DNA from: a virus
Length of the DNA stretch: 21,317 bases
Virus record (IMG/VR): IMGVR_UViG_3300046048_000112
Coordinates: 1-21,317 of that record
Reading direction: 5' to 3' (one strand)
Shown here: positions 3,533-21,317 of the stretch, in pieces
How positions within the stretch are numbered: the first letter of the stretch is position 1
Layout: the number at the start of each line of letters is the position of its first letter
The notes under the pieces: model-generated
Told to the model about the DNA's origin: nothing
Seen by the model: only the letters and a program-made list of their open reading frames with translations
Databases searched by the model: none
Program-made: the position numbers and the translations under genes

Positions 3533-4114
3533 ATGGCAAACACAGCAATCTACAAAGCGCAGTCTATGTTGGGTAGGTGTGAAGCGTTGTCGCACATCAC
3601 CGCTACCATCGACCCCAGCCGGTGGACGTCTCGCAAAAAAGGACTTATCACCAAAGCCATCACCGATGGTATCGCCGCTTGCGGTAAAGATACGGCTTGG
3701 CTCGTAACAAGGATGGTGGAATCTGAGTGTGGTGAATCGCTTCCTTCGCTAACCCGTTGGGGTACGTGTATCCGGGCCGAGCACATCAAGCCGGAGAGGT
3801 TAGATGATTTGATGGCGTATACAGCCGCATGGATACGGCTCAGGCAATCCAAAGCTACAGAAAGGATCGACCAGTGGGGCAGGAAGCGCGTGGTAGGTGG
3901 TATAAGCTGGACAGAGAAGAGGTTTCTGGAAGAGCTTAACTTCCACAGTGTGTCTGAGATACCTGTGAACTCTCGGATGACGCATAAGGAACGTCATATG
4001 TTTATACGTGAGTATATTGTAGAGCCGGACACAGACCAACAACGTGCCCGTGATAGGCTGGTCGAGAGGATTAATAATGATGAGCCTATAACATTCGTGT
4101 TCGCCAACAACTAA
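3533..4114 (+). CDS. Hypothetical protein (193 aa)
   Basis: The start ATG follows AAAGGAAAC and lies 3 bases after the previous stop. The product is mildly basic and mostly helical in appearance. It has a DPSRWTSRKKGLITKAITDG segment near residues 27-46, and ends with charged and Asn-rich residues. No conserved catalytic pattern or membrane segment is evident and I do not recognise the family. Coding is supported by tight spacing to both neighbours and by a strong AAAAGGAGG site for the next gene just after its stop. Confidence 0.75.
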   Translation: MANTAIYKAQSMLGRCEALSHITATIDPSRWTSRKKGLITKAITDGIAACGKDTAWLVTRMVESECGESLPSLTRWGTCIRAEHIKPERLDDLMAYTAAWIRLRQSKATERIDQWGRKRVVGGISWTEKRFLEELNFHSVSEIPVNSRMTHKERHMFIREYIVEPDTDQQRARDRLVERINNDEPITFVFANN

Positions 4115-5988: not shown

Positions 5989-6158
5989 GGAAGCCCCGGT
6001 ATGTGGGGTGGTGCAGGCATCACGAGATACCTGTACACGAAGATAAGTACCGGCAGAAATGTATGGCCGGTACACGTGGCAAGCGGTGCAAGTATTTTAC
6101 ATTCAAGTTGCCTGCATTTTTAATCAAGCGGAAACAACCTAAAGGAGAAAAGCGATGA
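5970..6158 (+). CDS. Small basic Cys/His protein (62 aa)
   Basis: The frame begins at an ATG 19 bases inside the previous gene; a GTG at 5985 overlapping that gene's stop (GTGA) is an alternative start. The ribosome binding site is weak. The product is strongly basic and has WCRHH, a single Cys near residue 31, and GKRCKYF, giving a CxxH...C...C pattern that could bind zinc. It ends at the ATGA overlap with the next gene. It may be a small nucleic-acid-binding protein; family unknown. The weak start signal lowers confidence. Confidence 0.5.
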   Translation: MVQAPVRKPRYVGWCRHHEIPVHEDKYRQKCMAGTRGKRCKYFTFKLPAFLIKRKQPKGEKR

Positions 6159-6532
6159 ACGAATTTGCGAGAAAACGTTGGCACTCAGACAAGAAGATTT
6201 TGGCCCACCGTGAGCAACTCAAGGCGCTCGCCAAGAACACCATCCTCGCCGCACTGGCCGATGACTTGCCCAGCAAGACACTCAAGAACGCCATGAGTTT
6301 CCATGTTGTGCGTGACTGCGACCTGCGTGCTACCCTCGAAGAGAAGGCAATCTCCTGCCACAAACTCGCCGGCTGGACAGCCTTCGTCAACAGGAAGGGC
6401 AACCTCGTCCACGTCCTGCCCCAAGAGGGAGACTTCCACATCCGTCTCCCCATCTACTACTCCATCGCCAATGCGACGGACAAGCACATCGTGCGTATCC
6501 TCCAAGGCATGGTGCACGGGAGGTTGGCATGA
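6155..6532 (+). CDS. Hypothetical protein (125 aa)
   Basis: The ATG overlaps the previous stop and follows AAAGGAGAAAAGCG, a strong site. The product has a Lys/Ala-rich helical N-terminal half, and a beta-rich C-terminal half (WTAFVNRKGNLVHVLPQEGD) ending in a helix. No motif or membrane segment is recognised. Codon use and spacing match its neighbours. It lies in the small-gene block before the polymerase and may be an accessory or host-interaction protein. Confidence 0.7.
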   Translation: MNEFARKRWHSDKKILAHREQLKALAKNTILAALADDLPSKTLKNAMSFHVVRDCDLRATLEEKAISCHKLAGWTAFVNRKGNLVHVLPQEGDFHIRLPIYYSIANATDKHIVRILQGMVHGRLA

Positions 6533-6687
6533 CACGCAAGTCTGTCATGACCGCCTGCCCCTATTGCAACGCCGCCCAAACCTACGACAAGCTACATACC
6601 CGGGTGTATGAGTGCGGGACTGTGGCTGATCGAGACACACAGATATACAGGAGAGCGTGCGGCGGCAAAGGAGAGTTGAAGCAATGA
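6529..6687 (+). CDS. Small zinc-ribbon protein (52 aa)
   Basis: The ATG at 6529 overlaps the previous stop (ATGA) and follows GGGAGG. The 52-residue product has CPYC at residues 10-13, then Cys at 29 and Cys at 44 (CGG), the arrangement of a short zinc ribbon like those in phage Lar- and Com-type small proteins. Its stop at 6685-6687 overlaps the polymerase start. It could be a zinc-stabilised regulator or an anti-restriction-type protein; only the metal-ribbon fold is supported. The frame was found by direct reading. Confidence 0.6.
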   Translation: MTRKSVMTACPYCNAAQTYDKLHTRVYECGTVADRDTQIYRRACGGKGELKQ

Positions 6688-8663
6688 AACTACTAACGCT
6701 GGATTTCGAGACGGCATACGGCAAGCATCCTGAGACAGGGGAAGATATCACCCTGTCCAAGATGACGACCGAAGAGTATGTCCGTCACCCCAAGTTCAAG
6801 ATACACGGCGTCGGTCTGAAGTGGAACGACAATCCGGGTGTCTACTGGCATACACCTTTTGAGTTAGACAAGCTCCACAAATTACCGTGGCATGATATAG
6901 CTGTGCTCTGCCACAACACCATGTTCGATGGGTTCATACTGCACGAACACTTCAAGCTCTATCCAAAGATGTACCTCGACACGTTGTCGATGGGTCGTGC
7001 TCTCTACCCACAGGAATCCGTCTCCCTCTCCAACCTGTCCAAGCTACTGGGAGTGGGGAAGAAGGGTCACGAACTGGAGAACACCAAGGACAAGTGGGAA
7101 CTGACTGATGCTGAACAGCGCAGGCTGGGCGGGTACTGCGCTACCAACCAAGACAGTGATTGCAACCTGACGTGGCGTCTGTTCCAGATCATGAAGACCA
7201 TGATGCCACTCGAAGAACTGCGGGTCATCGACCTGACACTCCGCATGTTCTGCGATCCGATCCTTGAGCTGGATAAGGATGTGCTTGAGGATCATCTGAG
7301 CGAAGTGTTGGCACGTAAGAGTACCCTGCTCGCCTCGGTGGACGTCGACCTCAAGGAACTGCGGAGCAACCAGAAGTTTGCTGACACACTGCTCTCCCTT
7401 GGGGTTGACCCACCACTCAAGATCAGCAAGACCACGAAGAAAGAGACGTATGCCTTCGCCAAGACTGACGAGGGCATGCTTGCTCTGCTTGACCACGAAG
7501 ACCCTATCGTTGCCACGTTGGCGGAGGCACGGCTAGGCGTGAAGTCCTCGATCGAGGAGACACGTACTGTCCGGTACCTCGGCATCGCTGAACGTGGCCC
7601 ACTTCCAGTTGCACTATCCTACTGCGGTGCAGGTAACACACTGCGTTGGTCGGCCGCAGACAAACAGAACCTTCAGAACCTGCCACGTAAGGGCAACCTG
7701 CGCCGTGCGATCGTAGCCCCACCGGGGTACATCCTCGTGGTCGCTGACCTATCAGCTATCGAGGCACGCATGCTGGCGTGGATGGCAGGACAAGAGTCAC
7801 TGTTGCGCATCTTCCGTGAGGGAGGTGACGTGTACTGTGCCTTCGCCGCCGATATCTTTCAACGTGCCATCACCAAGAAGAACGAACTCGAACGCTTCTT
7901 GGGCAAGGTCTGCATCCTTGGGCTAGGCTACTCCATGTCATGGCCGACACTGGCACGTGCCATGGCTATCGGCCCACTCGGACAGGCACCGGTTATCTTT
8001 GGTGTCGACCACCTCAACATGTTCGGCTACACACCAGAGGATGTAGCTGAGTGGCGCAACAACAAGGACTTCTGGAAGAAAGCAAAGAAGACAACCAACA
8101 AACTCAAGGGCGACGACCTTGCCGCCCACTGCCTGATCGCATCCTATCTCGTCAATACCTACCGTGCCGCCAACGATGCTATCCCTGACTACTGGAAGTC
8201 ATGCACCTCCATGCTCAGGAGCATGAGCCGTGGCACATCACAGGATTTTGGTGCCGTCTACACGGAACAAGACAGGCTCTGGTTACCCAGTGGTCTGTCG
8301 TTGCAGTACCGCAACCTGCGCCGTGAAGAAGACGAGGACTCAGACGATGGTAAAATGAACTGGGTCTATGATGGACGCAAGGGCAAGCAGTTTATCTATG
8401 GTGCCAAGCTCACGGAGAACATCACCCAAGCCTTGAGCCGCATCGTGCTGTCACACTGGATGGTCAACATCAAAGCACACAACCCACAGTACAAGGTAGC
8501 GTGGACTGTGCACGATGAGGTCATCTGTTGTGTACCCGAAGACATGGGTGAGCAGTGCTTGGATGACTGCATCGAACTGGTCAAGGACGCACCGGCATGG
8601 TGCCCTGACCTACCACTCGCCGCCGAGGGTGGGCTGGCCTACAACTATGGAGAGGCTAAGTGA
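6684..8663 (+). CDS. Family A DNA polymerase with 3'-5' exonuclease
   Basis: The 659-residue polymerase starts at an ATG 8 bases after AAAGGAGAG; a longer GTG start at 6657 is rejected because it would sit inside the previous gene without a site. The exonuclease has LDFET (Asp7, Glu9), HNTMFDG (77-83) and, near 151-159, YCATNQDSD in place of the usual YxxxD. The polymerase domain has RWSAADKQNLQNLPR (321-335), motif A ADLSAIEARMLA (354-365), motif B with Arg404, Lys408 and Gly-Tyr 415-416, and motif C HDE (610-612). There is no 5'-3' exonuclease domain, as in T7-like polymerases. It would copy the phage genome with the primase-helicase and SSB-like protein downstream. Its Zn-ribbon neighbour overlaps the start. 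Gene identity is very secure. Confidence 0.95.
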   Translation: MKLLTLDFETAYGKHPETGEDITLSKMTTEEYVRHPKFKIHGVGLKWNDNPGVYWHTPFELDKLHKLPWHDIAVLCHNTMFDGFILHEHFKLYPKMYLDTLSMGRALYPQESVSLSNLSKLLGVGKKGHELENTKDKWELTDAEQRRLGGYCATNQDSDCNLTWRLFQIMKTMMPLEELRVIDLTLRMFCDPILELDKDVLEDHLSEVLARKSTLLASVDVDLKELRSNQKFADTLLSLGVDPPLKISKTTKKETYAFAKTDEGMLALLDHEDPIVATLAEARLGVKSSIEETRTVRYLGIAERGPLPVALSYCGAGNTLRWSAADKQNLQNLPRKGNLRRAIVAPPGYILVVADLSAIEARMLAWMAGQESLLRIFREGGDVYCAFAADIFQRAITKKNELERFLGKVCILGLGYSMSWPTLARAMAIGPLGQAPVIFGVDHLNMFGYTPEDVAEWRNNKDFWKKAKKTTNKLKGDDLAAHCLIASYLVNTYRAANDAIPDYWKSCTSMLRSMSRGTSQDFGAVYTEQDRLWLPSGLSLQYRNLRREEDEDSDDGKMNWVYDGRKGKQFIYGAKLTENITQALSRIVLSHWMVNIKAHNPQYKVAWTVHDEVICCVPEDMGEQCLDDCIELVKDAPAWCPDLPLAAEGGLAYNYGEAK

Positions 8664-11111: not shown

Positions 11112-11391
11112 AGTTAAGCTACTGCTCAAGAAGCACGGAGCATGGAGCTTCCTGCCTGTGTCAGGTGGGCTGGGTGCGCACGGCATACCAGATGTGATCG
11201 CTTGCCATTGCGGCAAGTTCATCGGTATCGAGTGCAAAGCACCGGGGAAGAAGGACAACACTACAGCACTGCAACGTATGCAGATAGATGGGATCAAGAC
11301 AGCGCGAGGTATCGCCATGGTGGTAGCTGACGCTGACGACCTTGGGTACCTTGACTCAATGTTGAGAAGGATTACAGATGAATACTGTTAA
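11083..11391 (+). CDS. VRR-NUC domain endonuclease
   Basis: The start ATG at 11083 has GAGGGAGGA upstream; a longer start at 11056 is rejected. This 102-residue protein is a stand-alone VRR-NUC nuclease. Motifs: GKVKAKVKLLLKKHGAW helix, SGGLGAHGIPDVIA with Asp37, IGIECKAPG with Glu50 and Lys52, and TALQRMQ with Gln64. These are the catalytic core residues of the PD-(D/E)XK superfamily member found alone in phages and fused in FAN1. Stand-alone phage versions cut DNA junctions such as Holliday junctions. It sits between the Cas4-like nuclease and the SNF2-like helicase, and overlaps the helicase gene by 14 bases, as seen in many phages. Identity is very likely. Confidence 0.9.
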   Translation: MTPEGKVKAKVKLLLKKHGAWSFLPVSGGLGAHGIPDVIACHCGKFIGIECKAPGKKDNTTALQRMQIDGIKTARGIAMVVADADDLGYLDSMLRRITDEYC

Positions 11392-12934
11392 GGTCATCAA
11401 AGACCATATTGTATTTCAGGCCCGTGATGTCGAGCGCGTTAGGAAAATGTTTCCTGATGTGAAGTCGTCCGTTCTCAATGGCACGAACATCTGTGCTGTC
11501 CCTCACACACTGGGGGCCACGCGGTTCTTCGTCAACGCCGGCCGGGAAGTCCAGTCTCCGCTCAACACGACCTATAACTGGCCGGGACGGTTCACTCCGT
11601 ATGACCACCAACGGGTGACCTCTGAGTTCCTAGCCCTCAACTCCCGTGCTTATTGCCTGTCTGGGATGGGCACGGGCAAAACGAACTCGGCCTTATGGAC
11701 AGCCGACTACCTCATGAAGGAGGGAGAGATCAACAAGGCGCTGATCTTTGCCCCCCTGTCCACCCTCGACCGTGTGTGGGCGCACGAGATTTTTCAGACA
11801 CTGCCCCACCGCACATACCGCATCATCCATGGGACACGGGATAAGCGCCGTGCCTTGATGGAAGAGGATGTAGACTTCTACATCATCAACCACGATGGAG
11901 CGAACATCATCAGAGACCTGCTTGCTACTCGGGAGGACATCGACCACTTCATCATCGATGAGCTGGCCGTCTACCGCAACTCGCAGACCAAGAGATGGAA
12001 GGTGATGTTCGAGCTTTTGAATAGGCAGGGCATTGCTCGCTCTGCTTGGGGGCTGACGGGTACACCAACACCCAACGCTCCGACCGATGCGTTCGGCCAG
12101 ATCAGACTGCTGACCCCTGAGTCATACCGGTGGTCGTTCCGTAAGTTCAGGGACGAGACAATGAATCAGGTGACGCAGTTCAGGTGGGTGGCCAAGCGAA
12201 CTGCTGCGGATACAGTCAACAAGCTGATGAAACCATCCATCAGATTTGCTCTTGAGGATTGCATCGACCTCCCACCTACGATCTACCAAGAGCGAGAGGC
12301 ACCGCTGACTGCCGAGCAACAGAAGCACTACAACGAGCTGGTCAAAGAGGCCGTGACAACTGTCGGGCAGTCCTTGGTATCAGCCGTCAATGCTGGCGTG
12401 CTGCTCAACAAGCTGGTGCAAGCGGCCTGTGGCGTCCTGTACGGGCCGAACGATGAGGTACTGGAGCTGGACTTCGGACCTCGCTTATCCGTCCTCAAGG
12501 AAGTCATTGAGGGAAGCAACGAGAAGGTAATTGTATTCGTTCCCCTGACCGGCACGCTGAACGCCATAGCACGGGAGCTAAAGAAGGACTGGTCCGTCGC
12601 TATCGTTGACGGCAACGTCCCTCCGAACGCACGGAATCAAATCTTCCGTGAGTTTTCTAATGACCGTGATCCGCATGTCCTTGTCGCAAACGCAGGGACA
12701 ATGGCCCATGGACTGAACCTTATCGCAGCGTCGACAATCGTCTGGTACGCTCCGGTCCATTCCAACGAGACTTACATTCAGGCTAACGCCCGTATCGTGA
12801 GGCCGGGGCAAACCAACATCACTAACATCGTGCACATCCATGGCACATCTGCCGAACGTAGGATTTATTCCACCCTGCGCGAGCGGGGCAGGCTTCAAGA
12901 TGTTGTCTTGGCACTAGCGAAAGGACGTGGATGA
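11378..12934 (+). CDS. SNF2/DEAD-like superfamily 2 helicase
   Basis: The ATG overlaps the VRR-NUC gene, with AGAAGGATTACAG upstream. The 518-residue protein shows FTPYDHQ (72-78), motif I GMGTGKT (96-102), motif II DELA (194-197, a variant of DEAH), motif III LTGTPTPN (226-233) and, in the second RecA-like domain, an AGTMAHGLNL segment and a QANARIVRPGQ motif VI. These are hallmarks of SNF2-type superfamily 2 helicases or translocases. In phages this gene often follows a VRR-NUC gene, and the pair may process replication forks or recombination intermediates. Chromatin remodelling does not apply; it would translocate along DNA using ATP. Identity is secure, though the exact substrate is not known. 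Confidence 0.9.
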   Translation: MNTVKVIKDHIVFQARDVERVRKMFPDVKSSVLNGTNICAVPHTLGATRFFVNAGREVQSPLNTTYNWPGRFTPYDHQRVTSEFLALNSRAYCLSGMGTGKTNSALWTADYLMKEGEINKALIFAPLSTLDRVWAHEIFQTLPHRTYRIIHGTRDKRRALMEEDVDFYIINHDGANIIRDLLATREDIDHFIIDELAVYRNSQTKRWKVMFELLNRQGIARSAWGLTGTPTPNAPTDAFGQIRLLTPESYRWSFRKFRDETMNQVTQFRWVAKRTAADTVNKLMKPSIRFALEDCIDLPPTIYQEREAPLTAEQQKHYNELVKEAVTTVGQSLVSAVNAGVLLNKLVQAACGVLYGPNDEVLELDFGPRLSVLKEVIEGSNEKVIVFVPLTGTLNAIARELKKDWSVAIVDGNVPPNARNQIFREFSNDRDPHVLVANAGTMAHGLNLIAASTIVWYAPVHSNETYIQANARIVRPGQTNITNIVHIHGTSAERRIYSTLRERGRLQDVVLALAKGRG

Positions 12935-13527: not shown

Positions 13528-13556
13528 TTGACAAGTAGTAGAAGCTAGTGTATGTT
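13528..13556 (+). promoter_or_regulatory. Sigma70-like promoter for the SSB-like operon
   Basis: A perfect TTGACA (13528-13533) is 17 bases from TATGTT (13551-13556). It sits in one of the few intergenic gaps (13511-13582), directly before the coiled-coil and SSB-like genes. Confidence 0.7.
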
Positions 13557-13582: not shown

Positions 13583-13987
13583 ATGAACCTAGATCAACTG
13601 ACTGGAAAGTATGTAGAACTGCGGGATAGGCGCTCTGTGCTGAAGAAACAGTACGAGCAAGATGATGCGTCTCTCAAGGTCATAATGGAGAAGATCGAAG
13701 ATCGACTCCGTGAGATGTTGACCGACATGGGGGCCAACAGTGCAAACACAGCGCATGGCACGGTGTACAAGACGTACAAAGAGTTTGCCAACGTAGCGGA
13801 TTGGGACATGGTTCTCAACTTCATCCGTGACAACGAACGTTGGGACATGCTCGAACGCAGGATCAGCAAGACTGCGGTCAAGGACATCATGCACCAGACC
13901 CCAGAAGGAACGTATCTTAACCCACCCCCACCGGGGGTCAACTTCTCACGCACGGAAGTCGTGCAAATTCGGAGGAAGAACACATGA
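13583..13987 (+). CDS. Coiled-coil protein of the SSB operon (134 aa)
   Basis: The ATG has AAAGGAGGTTCC upstream and is the first gene of the promoter at 13528. Residues about 1-45 form a charged coiled coil (KYVELRDRRSVLKKQYEQDD and on), then a beta-type stretch (TVYKTYKEFANVADWDMVL) and a C-terminal PPPPGVNFSRTEVVQIRRK segment. Comparable small phage proteins occur directly before SSB- or recombination-type genes, but the family is not named with confidence. Its TGA overlaps the ATG of the SSB-like gene, so they are probably made together and may interact. Confidence 0.65.
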   Translation: MNLDQLTGKYVELRDRRSVLKKQYEQDDASLKVIMEKIEDRLREMLTDMGANSANTAHGTVYKTYKEFANVADWDMVLNFIRDNERWDMLERRISKTAVKDIMHQTPEGTYLNPPPPGVNFSRTEVVQIRRKNT

Positions 13988-15076: not shown

Positions 15077-15364
15077 ATGAATGAGCTACCATCATTTGCT
15101 TATGTGCTGAAGGTTATGGAGAACGCTGGCCTGACCCCCACGGAGATGATAAACCTCCTCCCGATCGGCCGCGCCACGTTCTACAGTTGGAAAAGAGGTC
15201 AGCCAATCGGTGACATTTTACGTTATCGGCTTACCATTGCGAGGTGCAAAGTTATAGAGCAGGCTACACTTGCTGGTAAATTACCATTGTCCGTCAACGT
15301 CCTGAGAAGTTCGAGGAGACCCGCGATAGAGAAAGCGTTGGCCGAAGCTCGTCTATCTCGTTGA
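15077..15364 (+). CDS. Small helix-turn-helix-like protein (95 aa)
   Basis: The ATG at 15077 is preferred because GGAG lies 6 bases upstream; an ATG at 15065 has no such site. Residues about 18-40 (GLTPTEMINLLPIGRATFYS, then WKRG) resemble a helix-turn-helix of the transcriptional regulator or terminase-small-subunit type, and the rest is basic with an Arg-rich tail. It lies just after the tRNA-like element and before the primase-helicase, whose promoter begins at its stop codon, so it may regulate that gene. Fold suggested only by pattern. Confidence 0.6.
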   Translation: MNELPSFAYVLKVMENAGLTPTEMINLLPIGRATFYSWKRGQPIGDILRYRLTIARCKVIEQATLAGKLPLSVNVLRSSRRPAIEKALAEARLSR

Positions 15365-15390
15365 CTCTGCGGCAATCACCATTGCATAAT
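15361..15390 (+). promoter_or_regulatory. Promoter for the primase-helicase gene
   Basis: TTGACT (15361-15366), containing the stop of the preceding gene, is 18 bases from CATAAT (15385-15390). GCAAT-CACC-ATTGC (15372-15385), a 5-bp inverted repeat with 4-base centre, lies between the boxes and may be an operator. The -10 is imperfect. Confidence 0.5.
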
Positions 15391-15433
15391 AGAACCTTCC
15401 CGCCGCACAACCTAAGAGTCAGGAGGTCTGTCT

Positions 15434-18292
15434 GTGTTGAATTTAATTCTCCCCGATATGGGGTACTACGTTGTTATGCTGTACAAAAAGGGGTCAGAGA
15501 AACCCTTCCACAAATACCACGACACGATTGAAGAAGCGACTGAATGTATTGCGAGGTATGCCGACAACGAAAACTACACGGTGTACCTCGCACAGTCAGC
15601 CTATGCAGAGAAGCGCCGCATCAAGGAAAACGTCCGAGCCATCCGCTCGTTCTGGCTGGACATAGACTGTGGCCCTAACAAGCCCTTCCCCACTCAAGGG
15701 CATGCGTTCAAGGCACTGGTCGAGTTCGTCACGAAGACAGGGCTACCCCGTCCCATCGTCGTTAACTCAGGCCACGGGCTGTATGCCCATTGGCCGCTGA
15801 CTGATGAAGTCCCTCGTCAGTCATGGGTGCAGAGTGCTAAGCTCCTCAAGAACGTGACATCTGTTTATGAGTTTGAGGCGGACTCATCGAGAACTTCCGA
15901 TGCAGCTTCAGTGCTCCGTCCTGTCGGCTCTGTCAACAGGAAGGTCAAGTGCGATGGGTGCAACGACACACTCGAAGGTGTTGGGTATGAGTGTCCTTGC
16001 GGTGGCGTGGGGGTACAGACTGCCAAGCCGGTTACTCTGATCCCCGCTGCCTATGACGCTCCGACGTCTATCGGCAACTTCACTACGTTGCTGGAGAAAG
16101 CAGCTAAGAGGGCCAACCTTACTTTTGATAAGGTAACTTCCGCCCCCAAGAAGTCCAAGGACATCAACTCAGAGTTCCAAATCTACGACAACGTGGCCCC
16201 CACGGCCGACGCTGAGATCATCGCTGACAAATGTCAGCAGATGGCCATCATCCGTCGCACCAAGGGGAATGTGTCCGAGCCGTTCTGGTACGCTGCTGTC
16301 GGCCTGCTGCGCTACACCATGCAGTCCCCGGACATTATCCACGAGTGGTCGAGTGGGCACCCGAACTACTCGGCCCATGAGACGGACGCCAAGATCAAGC
16401 AGCACGAAGAGTCAGGGGCCGGCCCGTCAACGTGTGCCTACCTCAACGACTGCAATGAGAAGGGCTGCGCTGGCTGCGTCTACAAAGATAAGATTCGTTC
16501 CCCTATCGTGCTAGGCCGAGTGCTTCGTGAGCTTGCGAACATGGCCGGCATCGAGCCACCGACACCATTTGCGAGGGCCGAGGATGGCCTGTATGTGAAG
16601 ATCGAGGATGTAGATATACGCTTCTACTCCAACGATCTCTACGTTGATTCTGTGGCGTATGACGAGAGCCTACCTGCTGAAGTTGTGGTCATCAAGCACC
16701 ACCTGCCACAGGATGGGTGGCTTGAGTTCAACATGAAGACTTCGGCGCTGACCGACACGCGCTCCGCAATGGTATCTTTGTTCGACAACCATGTCACAGT
16801 GGTCGGGCAAAAGGAGAAAAAGTTTATGGTGTCGTACATCGAGAGTTACGCTGAGAAGCTCAAGCGGGAGCGCAAGCTCAACCATCTGCTATGCCAGATG
16901 GGGTGGAAGAACATTCACGACGAGACCAAGTTCGTGCTCGGCAAGCGGATGTTCAACGAAGACGGCACGGTTACCACCGTGTCAATGGCGCACAATATTC
17001 CACAGTCAGCCAAAGCGTTTCATCCACAAGGAGAGCTTTCTGAGTGGATCAAGGCCACGCACTTCCTGTCGCTCCCCGGCATGCAGCCGCTGGCCTTTGC
17101 TTTTCTGGCCGGTGCCTTCGGTGCTCCGCTGGTCAAGTTCACAGGGTACAACGGGGCAATGGTTTCTCTGCTTGGTCCATCCGGCATAGGTAAGACACTG
17201 GTTGGTGAGTTAGCACTGAGTGTGTACGGCAAACCAAACCAACTTACGATGCACATGGAAGACACCAAGAACGCGCTGGTCGGCCGGCTTGGCATCTACG
17301 GTAGCCTCCCCTTATACATTGACGAGGTCACCAACCTCGAATCGATGGAGCTGTCCAGCCTGATCTACCGCATCACACAAGGCAGGGACAAGGTTAGGCA
17401 GGGGAGGGACGCCGTCGAGAAAGCATCCATCAATCAGTGGAACACACTAGCCCTCGTTAGTACCAACAGCTCCATCGTAGACAAACTCTCCGGCGCTAAG
17501 CTGGATGCCTCAGCAGAAGTCAACCGCATCTTCGAGATCACCATCGAGCGCAACCAACACCTCACCCGTGAAGTAGGCAAGCAGACGCACCGTGCGTTCA
17601 GCGACAACTTCGGATTGGCCGGCCAAGAATATCTGCGCTACCTCACCATGCACACATCAGAGCACAGGGAACGGCTCGATAAGGTAATCGCTCTGATCGA
17701 CAAACGCACCAACGCGCAAGCGGAGGAGCGGTTCTGGTCGACGGTGGCCGGGGTTGCCATCTATGGTGGGTCAATAGCCAAGTCGCTTGGCCTGATTGAG
17801 TTCGAGATAGCACCAATCCTTGAATGGGTTGTTGACGCAATCATCGAGATGCGCACCGGCAAGGCTGACAGCCACAATGATGCGGTCTCAATCCTCGGCC
17901 AGTTCCTTGACGAGCACGCAGCCAACGCCCTTATCGTCAAGGATGGGCGTGTCGTTCACGAGCCACGCGGTGCGCTAGTGTACAGGATAGATGTGGATAC
18001 TCAGGCGCTGCTGATAGGGCGCAAGAAGCTCAATGATTGGGTGAACAAACGGTACGGCTCTTACACCTCAGTGAAGAATGAGCTGCTTGAGAGCGGGGCA
18101 TTGCGCAGTCACAACTACCGCAAGGTTCTTGGCGCAGGTACCTCATGGTCAGGGACACAGCAGCCATGCTGGATGGTCGACTTGCAGAACCCCACGCTCG
18201 GCGTCGTCAATATGGTTTTGTCAGAGAAGATTCGCAGGCTTGACAAACTGCATAACCTCGATGATCTTGATGCGCAGGCCGTCACGCATTGA
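15434..18292 (+). CDS. Primase-helicase: AEP-like primase fused to DUF927-like ATPase
   Basis: The start is a GTG at 15434, 7 bases after a perfect AGGAGG. The 952-residue protein has an N-terminal archaeo-eukaryotic-type primase with LDID (Asp76, Asp78), SGHGLYAHW (112-120) and LRPVGSVNRK (161-170). An inserted zinc knuckle has Cys173, 176, 187 and 189. A PriCT-like linker follows, with a second Cys group (334, 340, 345, 348). The C-terminal half is a helicase-type ATPase of the DUF927 class, with Walker A GPSGIGKT (581-588) and Walker B LPLYIDE (625-631), then a sensor-like LALVSTN. It would open the origin or fork and make primers, replacing separate primase and helicase genes. The two cysteine groups could be zinc or iron-sulphur sites. 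Identity is strong, zinc sites inferred. Confidence 0.9.
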   Translation: MLNLILPDMGYYVVMLYKKGSEKPFHKYHDTIEEATECIARYADNENYTVYLAQSAYAEKRRIKENVRAIRSFWLDIDCGPNKPFPTQGHAFKALVEFVTKTGLPRPIVVNSGHGLYAHWPLTDEVPRQSWVQSAKLLKNVTSVYEFEADSSRTSDAASVLRPVGSVNRKVKCDGCNDTLEGVGYECPCGGVGVQTAKPVTLIPAAYDAPTSIGNFTTLLEKAAKRANLTFDKVTSAPKKSKDINSEFQIYDNVAPTADAEIIADKCQQMAIIRRTKGNVSEPFWYAAVGLLRYTMQSPDIIHEWSSGHPNYSAHETDAKIKQHEESGAGPSTCAYLNDCNEKGCAGCVYKDKIRSPIVLGRVLRELANMAGIEPPTPFARAEDGLYVKIEDVDIRFYSNDLYVDSVAYDESLPAEVVVIKHHLPQDGWLEFNMKTSALTDTRSAMVSLFDNHVTVVGQKEKKFMVSYIESYAEKLKRERKLNHLLCQMGWKNIHDETKFVLGKRMFNEDGTVTTVSMAHNIPQSAKAFHPQGELSEWIKATHFLSLPGMQPLAFAFLAGAFGAPLVKFTGYNGAMVSLLGPSGIGKTLVGELALSVYGKPNQLTMHMEDTKNALVGRLGIYGSLPLYIDEVTNLESMELSSLIYRITQGRDKVRQGRDAVEKASINQWNTLALVSTNSSIVDKLSGAKLDASAEVNRIFEITIERNQHLTREVGKQTHRAFSDNFGLAGQEYLRYLTMHTSEHRERLDKVIALIDKRTNAQAEERFWSTVAGVAIYGGSIAKSLGLIEFEIAPILEWVVDAIIEMRTGKADSHNDAVSILGQFLDEHAANALIVKDGRVVHEPRGALVYRIDVDTQALLIGRKKLNDWVNKRYGSYTSVKNELLESGALRSHNYRKVLGAGTSWSGTQQPCWMVDLQNPTLGVVNMVLSEKIRRLDKLHNLDDLDAQAVTH

Positions 18293-18317
18293 CACGGACG
18301 TAAACGTACGCTAAGAT
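18289..18317 (+). promoter_or_regulatory. Promoter at the end of the primase gene
   Basis: A perfect TTGACA (18289-18294), with the primase stop inside it, is 17 bases from TAAGAT (18312-18317). The only thing downstream before the terminator is about 80 bases of non-coding sequence. Confidence 0.55.
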
Positions 18318-18323
18318 ACGATC

Positions 18324-18399
18324 ACAGACAGACAGACGTTCATCGTCTATCCGCTTTAGGGCGGCACCGTTAACTCACTCCCGGTGCCGCCCATTTTTT
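18324..18399 (+). ncRNA. Candidate small RNA (about 76 nt)
   Basis: From a predicted start about 7 bases past TAAGAT, the transcript would run to the T-run of the terminator. It contains ACAGACAGACAG, a hairpin AGACG-TTCAT-CGTCT (18334-18348), and the terminator hairpin. No reading frame with a ribosome binding site is seen. It would end 2 bases past the stop of the convergent gene, so it could pair only minimally with that mRNA. Inferred from a promoter-terminator pair only; target unknown. Confidence 0.4.
18359..18399 (+). terminator. Strong intrinsic terminator
   Basis: GGGCGGCACCG (18359-18369) pairs perfectly with CGGTGCCGCCC (18382-18392) around a 12-base loop, followed by A and TTTTTT (18394-18399). 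The T-run favours the + strand; the minus strand has no T-run after the hairpin. It separates the + strand replication operon from the convergent gene. Confidence 0.9.
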
Positions 18400-21317
18400 A
18401 TTTGGGCAGGAATTTTTCCATCAGGACATCGCGCTTGGTAACAACACCTTTGTCGTTGTAGACGCGGCTCTTGATAGCACGCATCGTACTGTTCGGGTAG
18501 ACAGGGAAGCTCGGGTGCTTGGCGTTCCATGCAGCGATCTCAGCTACAGCTTCTCGCTTGGCTATGGAATCATTGTCGATGACTGCATCTGCTAGCCTGT
18601 TGTAGAGGCGCTGCTGCTGCTTGGCCACCTTGGCGCTGATGTTGGCCTTCATGCGCTCTACCTTCTTCGGCTGTACGTAGTCGTAGGGCATGATGCCCAA
18701 AGACAGCGTGATCGCATCCCACATGTCCGCCCCTTCACTCAGGCGCTTGCCGCCGGCCGTCACTACTCCATCCTTCTCAACAAAATTGAATGCGCGGATC
18801 GGGTCTTTGATCGCTTTCGGTACCATCTTCTCAAGCCCAGCCATGTACTCCCCATCCATAACCTTGTTGACCCCATCAAACAGATCACGGCCGGCCGCGT
18901 AGGATGGTCCCATCAAGCGAGCGGCGTAGTAGTCGTACAACGCAGCCCCTTCCAGATGGGCAGGGGTGAACCCCGGCTCCAGCCCGAGTGTGTCCGACGT
19001 GCCAATACGTGGCGACAGGTTCCAGCCGACACCGCCGAGGATACCGGTCTCCATCATGCGGACGACGGCGTCCGGTGTACCGTTCTCCTTCATCGCATTG
19101 TGGAACTCAGTGCGACTGTCAAAGAACTCGTCATCCTCATCATCCCCAAACGTACGGACGACGGCGTCGACTACCTCGAACATGACGCCAGCCAGCGGCA
19201 TACCCAGCGCACCGGCCAGAACACCAGAGGTGCCCATCATGTAGCTCAGTTCTTTCAGTGCCTGCGTTCTAATGGCTTTGTTTTGCCCACGCAAAGACTC
19301 GACAGCAAGGCGGCTGATCCGAGCCACCAAGCTCAGCGAGTAATACTTGAACTGTGATGCGACGCGCACGAAGGGGTGCTTGATCATGAACAGCGGCTTG
19401 GCTTCCTTGCTGTAGTCGAACATGGTGCCGGTGTTGATCTCGTGCTGGGCATAGTACAATGCCTCTGCCCAATCCTTGTGCTTCTGGTACGCGAGGTCGA
19501 AGCCAGAGATAACCGCAGTAGCCCTCGACAGTTCCTCTCCTTTGCGCATGAAGAACAAGGCGAACGGCATCATGCCCGAGTGAGCTTTGCCCTGCGCCAG
19601 CTCGATGGTCTCATTGGCGTAGGTAGTACCAACCATATTGCGTTGTAGTGCGGTGTACATCAGCAAGGCGTGGCGGTCTGATTCGCTCAGGCCGGCGACC
19701 AAGGCGTTGATCTCCCTCGGTGACATCAGGTTGTCGCCAACTTTTGCGGCCTTCCCTGCGGCAACGTCTTCTTCCGTAGCCGTAGCGTAAATACGTTCGT
19801 ACAATCCTCGGGCCACGCTGTCCTTGACGATGTTGTTCGGTCGCATGCGTGCGTCTGTAGCCATGGACATTGCCCGTCCCATCGCAGCGATAGACTTGGT
19901 CATGCCGAAGTTCGATGCCATCTTAGGCAGGGCAGTGATCCCGAGCTGACTCATTTGCACGAGGAACGTGGAGGGAGAGGACATGTACCAGATGCTGGCC
20001 AGCCGGCTAGCCGCAGCGAACGGCAACGGGACGGCCGGAGTATTACGTGAGACTTCGAGATGTTCCTTCAGGTGCGAGAGGACAGCCATCTCCATGTCAG
20101 GAGTTTCCCCCGCCTTGGCCTTGGCACGGACATAGTTCTCCATGTCAACCAGCCCCTTGTCGAGATGGAATCCATGCTGCAAGCTGGCGAGGTTCCCCGC
20201 ATGCCGAGTCATGTAGTCACTGACGGAGCGCACCATGTCGCCGTTGTAACCGGGGATGCTCCCACGTCTGACAGAGTTCTTGTAGGCTGATGTGTCCGGC
20301 AACGAGTCCATCCAAACGCTAGTCAGCATGCCCATCACTTCCTCGACCTGACGTTCGGCGGCGTTCATAGCGATCCGCCTGTCCTCGGCTGACAACTCAT
20401 CTACGGACTTACCCATCCGGCGCAGCTCGCGCTTGAAGTAGGTGTCAATCAGCGTCTTGGACTTAACCTTCATCTTGTCAAGCAGTTGCTGAGATGAGGT
20501 CCGAGTCGACGGGTCCGTCGAGTTGTAGCTGGCACGGACGTCAGTGTAGCGAGGCGTACCGTCTGCCTTCTTCATGCCCTTCAGCTCGGCCAAACGAGCG
20601 TCACGAGCGCCGATGTTCTCGAAGGCGCTCAGGTAGAACTGACCATCCCCTTTCGGGCCGGGAACAGAGGTATCTGTGGCAATGACGTAGTAGTCACCGA
20701 AGCGAGCAAGTGGGAAGTACACCCCACGCAGGCTGGCAAAGGAATCTGTCGCCTCCTTCACCATCTTCTCCCGGGTCCTGACGTCCCCGCCCTCAGTTAT
20801 CTCGTGGATTTTCTCGATGAGCGCCTTGCGTTCCTTGTTGCGCACGTCCTTGAGTTTGTCTGCAACATCAGCGAACACGGCTTTAGTCTCAGGGTCCATC
20901 CGATTGTAGGCTTCGACAGCCGCGTTGTACCCCTGCTCGAACGTCATGCCAGTGGTGCCCAGCAAACCTATCTTCCCCCACTGTTCCTCTGCTGCACGCA
21001 GACTACCAAAGTCAGTGACCCAGTCCTGCTGCTTCAGCGGCTTACGTGGATCAACCTGATGAAGCGTTGACAGTCCGGCCGCACCACTGAACGCCTCTGC
21101 GCGTTTGGTGCTCCGCCTCAGTGGCGACAACGCGAGCGTGAATGTATCTAGGATACCGTTACGGGTACCGGAGAAAGACTGCTGCCGCTCATACCATTGG
21201 CGCAACCCACTGATCTTCGCCCCGTACATGTTGACGATCTCAGGCACCGGCAGGAACTGGAGCCACGATCTGGCGGTCTGGCTCGGAACAGTCTTGGCGT
21301 TCTGCAATGTGCGCAGT
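18398..21317 (-). CDS. Large polyvalent protein, PLxRFG type (partial at N-terminus)
   Basis: The minus-strand frame is open to the right edge, so the N-terminus is beyond the window; the 969 residues counted from the TTG at 21307 are a minimum. PLARFG at about residues 199-204 is the signature of PLxRFG proteins, a domain found near the C-terminus of giant phage polyvalent proteins. The long C-terminal part resembles a large-polyvalent-protein-associated domain (LPD38 type), with helical, Ala- and Met-rich sequence and a hydrophobic stretch near SYMMGTSGVLAGALGMPLAG. Related proteins are packed in virions or injected into the host, often with enzyme domains upstream that protect phage DNA. 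The gene converges with the replication operon, as expected for a virion module transcribed separately. Domain seen from motif; virion location inferred. Confidence 0.75.
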   Translation of the reverse strand, partial: LRTLQNAKTVPSQTARSWLQFLPVPEIVNMYGAKISGLRQWYERQQSFSGTRNGILDTFTLALSPLRRSTKRAEAFSGAAGLSTLHQVDPRKPLKQQDWVTDFGSLRAAEEQWGKIGLLGTTGMTFEQGYNAAVEAYNRMDPETKAVFADVADKLKDVRNKERKALIEKIHEITEGGDVRTREKMVKEATDSFASLRGVYFPLARFGDYYVIATDTSVPGPKGDGQFYLSAFENIGARDARLAELKGMKKADGTPRYTDVRASYNSTDPSTRTSSQQLLDKMKVKSKTLIDTYFKRELRRMGKSVDELSAEDRRIAMNAAERQVEEVMGMLTSVWMDSLPDTSAYKNSVRRGSIPGYNGDMVRSVSDYMTRHAGNLASLQHGFHLDKGLVDMENYVRAKAKAGETPDMEMAVLSHLKEHLEVSRNTPAVPLPFAAASRLASIWYMSSPSTFLVQMSQLGITALPKMASNFGMTKSIAAMGRAMSMATDARMRPNNIVKDSVARGLYERIYATATEEDVAAGKAAKVGDNLMSPREINALVAGLSESDRHALLMYTALQRNMVGTTYANETIELAQGKAHSGMMPFALFFMRKGEELSRATAVISGFDLAYQKHKDWAEALYYAQHEINTGTMFDYSKEAKPLFMIKHPFVRVASQFKYYSLSLVARISRLAVESLRGQNKAIRTQALKELSYMMGTSGVLAGALGMPLAGVMFEVVDAVVRTFGDDEDDEFFDSRTEFHNAMKENGTPDAVVRMMETGILGGVGWNLSPRIGTSDTLGLEPGFTPAHLEGAALYDYYAARLMGPSYAAGRDLFDGVNKVMDGEYMAGLEKMVPKAIKDPIRAFNFVEKDGVVTAGGKRLSEGADMWDAITLSLGIMPYDYVQPKKVERMKANISAKVAKQQQRLYNRLADAVIDNDSIAKREAVAEIAAWNAKHPSFPVYPNSTMRAIKSRVYNDKGVVTKRDVLMEKFLPK

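Follow-up and report, generated by a model that had tools for sequence, protein, structure and literature searches.

The analysed window, i.e. the whole stretch of DNA under study, is a 21.3-kb record of an uncultivated phage in which the genes on the plus strand form a replication operon. This operon encodes a family A polymerase (6657-8663), an SNF2 helicase (11378-12934), an ortholog of a gene family of about 130 amino acids (13583-13987) and a DUF927 primase/helicase (15434-18292). The ~130-aa family shows only a weak likeness to Pam3 gp33 (DUF7307) and Gp157/Gam, which stays below the Pfam cut-offs. On the minus strand, the C-terminal part of a large polyvalent gene (DarB-like, LPD39; 18398-21316) converges on the operon. 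No DNA similarity to phage records was found, and the nearest isolates, Rollin and RHph_TM27A, are without the unit described below at the corresponding place, with RHph_TM27A having the terminator alone.

The interval 18289-18399 is flanked by the stop codons of the primase gene and of the polyvalent gene (18398). It starts with a sigma70-type promoter on the plus strand (TTGACA-17-TAAGAT, 18289-18317), consisting of a -35 box TTGACA (18289-18294), a spacer of 17 nt and a -10 box TAAGAT (18312-18317). The -35 box overlaps the end of the primase gene, the stop codon of which (TGA, 18290-18292) lies inside TTGACA. Scored with E. coli-like frequencies, this promoter has the top sigma70-type score on the plus strand of the window, and 0 of 566 background windows score as high. 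A plain count of the promoter consensus is not above chance, with 1 found and 1.9 expected in shuffles. In nine related records, TTGACA-17-TANNNT occurs 21 times compared to 2 occurrences of the reversed pattern, an excess suggesting that phages of this group probably use host sigma70-type promoters.

With a start site derived from the position of the -10 box, a plus-strand small RNA of about 76 nt is predicted (18324-18399). Its 5' leader ACAGACAGAC (18324-18333), the predicted seed, is a perfect complement of 15426-15435 and is followed by a small hairpin AGACG-UUCAU-CGUCU (18334-18348), as indicated by folding, and by the sequence CGTCTATCC (18344-18352). The RNA ends with an intrinsic terminator (18359-18399), which also terminates the upstream operon and consists of a perfect 11-bp stem (18359-18369/18382-18392), a 12-nt loop UUAACUCACUCC and a U tract (ATTTTTT) containing the stop codon of the polyvalent gene. 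A simple terminator scanner allows loops of at most 8 nt and thus missed this terminator. Folding of 18324-18400 yields a z-score of -6.35 relative to shuffles. An ORF check revealed no plausible gene within 18289-18399, and one overlapping-frame ORF (18078-18314) ends inside the interval. An earlier note on this DNA had described the promoter, a perfect 11-bp terminator shortly downstream, the lack of a reading frame between them, the hairpin and a transcript of about 76 nt ending at the tail of the convergent polyvalent gene; all of these features are confirmed, the length being correct given a start at 18324. Rfam 15 gave no match in the window at gathering score, and only weak, chance-like matches appeared at a lax threshold.

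The earlier note had named conservation in relatives as a point to be checked, and such conservation was indeed found. L153 and L154, which are the nearest relatives and have primases 53% identical to that of the window, retain the promoter, the start site, the leader with ACAGAC, CGTCTATCC and a terminator, and the sequence between these elements has diverged. The order in both, at or just after the primase stop, is TTGACA-17-TAGTAT, 6 nt, AC(AC)AGAC, then CGTCTATCC, which is invariant across all three phages, a C/U-rich stretch and a terminator of different sequence. The hairpin arms AGAC(G) and (C)GTCT are kept as well, with differing loops. A scan of 2.9 million viral contigs with the exact unit pattern matched only L153 and L154. 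The phage L155 (primase identity 46%) has TTGACT-17-TATAGT, 6 nt, a body of about 20 nt and a terminator immediately ahead of the convergent genes. The -35 box of its small-RNA promoter is overlapped by a perfect 11-bp inverted repeat, TAGACGGAAGT-acttg-ACTTCCGTCTA (L155 7311-7337), which resembles an operator or an upstream hairpin.

Most relatives with 38-45% primase identity have a different gene order. A promoter, a short RNA and a terminator follow the DUF927 primase in 26 of 29 distinct junctions, with primase identities down to 28%. In these 29 junctions, the best promoter ahead of the terminator is mostly located at one fixed place (combined p 5e-9), and the distance from the -10 box to the terminator stem is 38-47 nt in most of them. 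In a wider group with primases of about 30% identity, the primase gene is followed by a short plus-strand ORF and then by the promoter-RNA-terminator unit. Here the -10 box TANNNT comes immediately after the stop codon (TGA-TANNNT or TAG-TANNNT), and the -35 box coincides with Leu-Arg codons (TTTACG, TTGCGY) in the last ORF. The RNAs of this group are composed of a 5' hairpin, a C/U-rich stretch and the terminator. MAFFT/RNAalifold aligned only the terminator of such diverse RNAs; since the hairpins are not alignable by sequence, folding was compared to shuffles instead. The first 28 nt of the predicted RNAs fold better than shuffles (combined p 1e-12), and 18 of 19 RNAs have a hairpin that begins no more than 3 nt away from the predicted start. 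The combined p-values assume independent lineages. The motif CTCC is present in 23 of 23 clade-2 RNAs, with 7.4 expected. Three phages (L202, L225, L227) have the terminator, but neither promoter nor RNA body. In these, the -10 box is absent, CTN Leu codons occur where most promoter-bearing relatives have TTA/TTG, and the terminator follows the stop codon almost directly, which looks like an apparent loss of the RNA gene.

The RNAs of this family are hypervariable, yet they co-vary with the translation-initiation region of the ~130-aa gene, which lies two to five kilobases upstream of the RNA in the same operon. Plain duplex energies against all start regions revealed no significant single target in most phages; because these energies are dominated by the terminator and by G+C content, the analysis relied on exact pairing runs controlled by swapping and permutation, with gene starts called by a heuristic. 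When the RNA locus was masked, 61 start regions paired perfectly with the phages' own RNAs over 9 nt or more, compared to 12.9 expected with swapped RNAs. The ~130-aa gene is the recurring target and ranked first of 18 gene families without preselection. Pairing with this gene is perfect over typically 9-13 nt and covers the Shine-Dalgarno sequence, as in the RNA/start-region pairs TCCTCTTGGT/ACCAAGAGGA (L198), TCGCTCCTTC/GAAGGAGCGA (L188), CTCCATGATTT/AAATCATGGAG (L222), TCTCCATTGTTAT/ATAACAATGGAGA (L145) and TCCCTTCTTGT/ACAAGAAGGGA (L153). In 21 lineages the mean own run was 9.19 nt compared to 5.98 nt in permutations (z 9.7, 0/100,000), a permutation test that is conservative for related pairs. 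Secondary targets are the SNF2 helicase (z 3.8, p 0.00075) and the adjacent ~300-aa gene (z 3.7, p 0.0004). In the same 18-family test, the polymerase and the polyvalent gene gave no co-variation signal.

The co-variation was replicated in a hold-out set from two further scans comprising at least 154 loci. In 22 lineages unlike the earlier ones, the own run was 8.27 compared to 6.24 (z 7.5). The strict promoter pattern missed 67 of 115 hold-out loci, and a relaxed rule found a promoter in 93 of 108. Independently of any promoter rule, the 45 nt before the terminator were analysed in 54 lineages, resulting in an own run of 8.28 compared to 5.93 (z 13.8) and in runs of at least 9 nt in 25 of the 54 lineages, with 2.4 expected. 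Windows shifted by 45 nt and 90 nt upstream (z 0.1 and 0.4) and the reverse complement (z -0.3) were flat in these 54 lineages, and the strand and place of the pairing element are therefore fixed.

In the window phage, the best match is the primase start. The leader ACAGACAGAC pairs with GTCTGTCTGT, reaching from the last base of the Shine-Dalgarno sequence (AGGAGG, 15421-15426) across the spacer into the GTG start codon; the predicted target site on the plus strand is 15426-15436 (GTCTGTCTGTG). This match of 10 nt ranks first among 30 genes, and the ACAGAC repeats pointed out in the earlier note are likely to be the pairing seed. In L153, GCACAGACAG pairs with CTGTCTGTGC and AATAAGCAC with GTGCTTATT in the primase start region, and in L154 ACACAGAC pairs with GTCTGTGT. 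Dinucleotide shuffles gave p-values for the primase pairing of 0.001-0.016 (window), 0.014-0.033 (L153) and 0.015-0.038 (L154). The own primase run was reached by 0, 1 and 1 of 47 unrelated RNAs, respectively, and 3 of 47 equalled or surpassed the window RNA in duplex energy on the window primase. Co-folding of the RNA with the primase leader yields a gain of about 12.6 kcal/mol over the separate molecules. The L155 RNA showed no significant primase pairing in dinucleotide shuffles. With this pairing observed in three related phages and of moderate statistical strength, the primase is a likely candidate for the window RNA's own target. A second possible target, the start-codon region (6153-6161, plus strand) of a 125-aa gene (6155-6532), has a statistically weak 9-nt match to the hairpin loop and its flank.

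The L153 RNA also matches its ~130-aa (134-aa) gene, the family-wide target, over 11 nt. This match is absent in the window and L154, where the gene and the own RNA share runs of only 6 nt and 4 nt, respectively. That L153 matches both genes, and the window and L154 the primase only, suggests that retargeting may be in action in this group. A promoter-like sequence before the primase gene, TTGAC...TTGCATAAT, is conserved in the window (15361-15390), L153 (~3932-3963) and L154 (~3935-3968), so that the target mRNA may arise apart from the long operon transcript.

It is very likely, judging from these sequence comparisons, that 18289-18399 constitutes a gene for a small RNA, transcribed from a host-sigma70 promoter of its own, which acts in trans as an antisense RNA and exerts negative feedback on replication genes. 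The assumption of a likely phage small RNA in the earlier note is thus strongly supported by the conserved unit and by the co-variation of RNA and target ribosome-binding site in many lineages. The gene closes the replication operon on the 3' side, uses the operon's terminator and would give rise to a ~76-nt RNA that pairs with the Shine-Dalgarno/start region of mRNAs from the same operon and blocks ribosome loading. Such a block of translation initiation is suggested by the fact that, in most lineages, the pairing covers the Shine-Dalgarno sequence or the start codon, and we infer that the RNA is made and that it represses rather than activates. Chief target of the family would be the ~130-aa gene, and the SNF2 helicase and the neighboring ~300-aa gene would be additional ones; in the window phage, L153 and L154, the leader with ACAGAC at the 5' end would be aimed at the primase start site. 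Repression of replication proteins would constitute the negative feedback: since the RNA gene ends the operon encoding its targets, an increase in genome copies might raise the amount of RNA and lower that of replication proteins. Conceivably, the RNA could be silenced or titrated by transcription coming late from the convergent gene. The earlier note had named neither a target nor a mechanism; its suggestion that the RNA may be a regulator made during replication fits, because the target prediction called for in that note led to start regions of replication-operon genes, and its other suggestion, a decoy, is not needed.

A different explanation would be that only the operon terminator is real and that the promoter is a chance match from which no separate RNA is made. 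A terminator is required wherever an operon ends, a plain count of the consensus in this region does not exceed that of shuffles, and RHph_TM27A, L202, L225 and L227 do have a terminator alone. The promoter is, however, kept at constant spacing in relatives despite diverged sequence, and co-variation with a distant start region is seen for the 45 nt preceding the terminator, but not for shifted windows or the reverse strand, which makes this explanation very unlikely. A real RNA could also have its pairing segment cut out of the operon's 3' UTR by processing, as the segment is also part of readthrough operon mRNA and seven hold-out lineages without a recognizable promoter still co-vary (z 2.8). 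With a promoter in nearly all lineages and a hairpin beginning at the predicted start in 18 of 19 RNAs, this origin of the pairing segment appears improbable.

A generic anti-Shine-Dalgarno RNA that dampens a wide range of mRNAs of phage or host, instead of a small set of phage genes, would account for CTCC in all clade-2 RNAs, for pairing that is better at start regions than inside genes in 4 of 7 phages and for one phage (G016) with 7 start regions at 9 nt or more. However, own RNAs outdo swapped RNAs and the pairing therefore extends beyond the Shine-Dalgarno sequence; furthermore, CTCC is found in 15 of 25 hold-out RNAs, and RNAs without it match the differing Shine-Dalgarno sequence of their own target. 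A generic action is thus rather unlikely. A location next to the primase gene, where two operons converge, would also suit a replication primer, a transcript linked to an origin or a road-block between the two operons. Short units of promoter and terminator can be associated with origins, and the OOP RNA of phage lambda is located next to replication genes. Such functions predict no co-variation with distant ribosome-binding sites and can be given hardly any weight.

An antisense RNA acting on replication genes would resemble several known regulators. The c4 RNA of phages P1 and P7 prevents translation of a phage mRNA by antisense pairing at its ribosome-binding site (PMC12197685), as is proposed here. 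However, c4 controls the antirepressor gene ant, whereas the RNA studied here has its own promoter at an operon 3' end, is hypervariable but co-varying, and has its best targets among replication-operon genes rather than at an antirepressor ribosome-binding site. OOP, a short lambda RNA with its own promoter, is antisense to cII and promotes cII decay via RNase III (PMC12197685). It is similar in size and setting, but the targets of the present family are kilobases away and pair over 9-13 nt at the Shine-Dalgarno sequence. PreS of lambda, which targets host dnaN, and VpdS of VP882, which acts on phage and host mRNAs, are likewise phage-encoded trans-acting sRNAs and function with Hfq (PMC12197685); for the present RNA, sequence evidence indicates phage replication genes as targets. 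CcsR1 and other 'cuckoo' RNAs of alphaproteobacteria are also small hairpin RNAs exposing a C/U-rich anti-Shine-Dalgarno-like stretch, but they are bacterial and their CCUCCUCCC motif is absent from the window RNA. A weak cmscan match to CcsR1 (RF02791) at 18338-18398 (E 0.024) was rejected, as its 17.7 bits are far below the gathering score of 65.3.

A search of open-access papers found no description of this replication-operon small-RNA family, which is apparently undescribed. It is likely that these RNAs represent a large phage family beyond the reach of similarity search, defined by position and by co-evolution with replication-operon ribosome-binding sites, which would act as a built-in antisense brake on DNA replication and be retargeted between genes. 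Most of the phage trans-acting sRNAs described so far belong to temperate phages that infect model hosts. In the present family, the joint evolution of RNA and target across many lineages makes the pairing testable by seed swapping, and position combined with co-variation between RNA and start regions offers a general route to regulatory RNAs that are too variable for similarity searches.

The function of the ~130-aa target gene is now of interest. Before the corresponding ~134-aa gene of the window, a promoter-like sequence TTGACAAGTAGTAG...TATGTT (13528-13556) is present, which is conserved in L154 and reads TTGACA-17-TACATT in L153. The terminator loops of L214, L223, L228 and the window are long and C/U-rich (e.g. 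UACUCCCCUUU; window UUAACUCACUCC) and perhaps provide a second pairing site.
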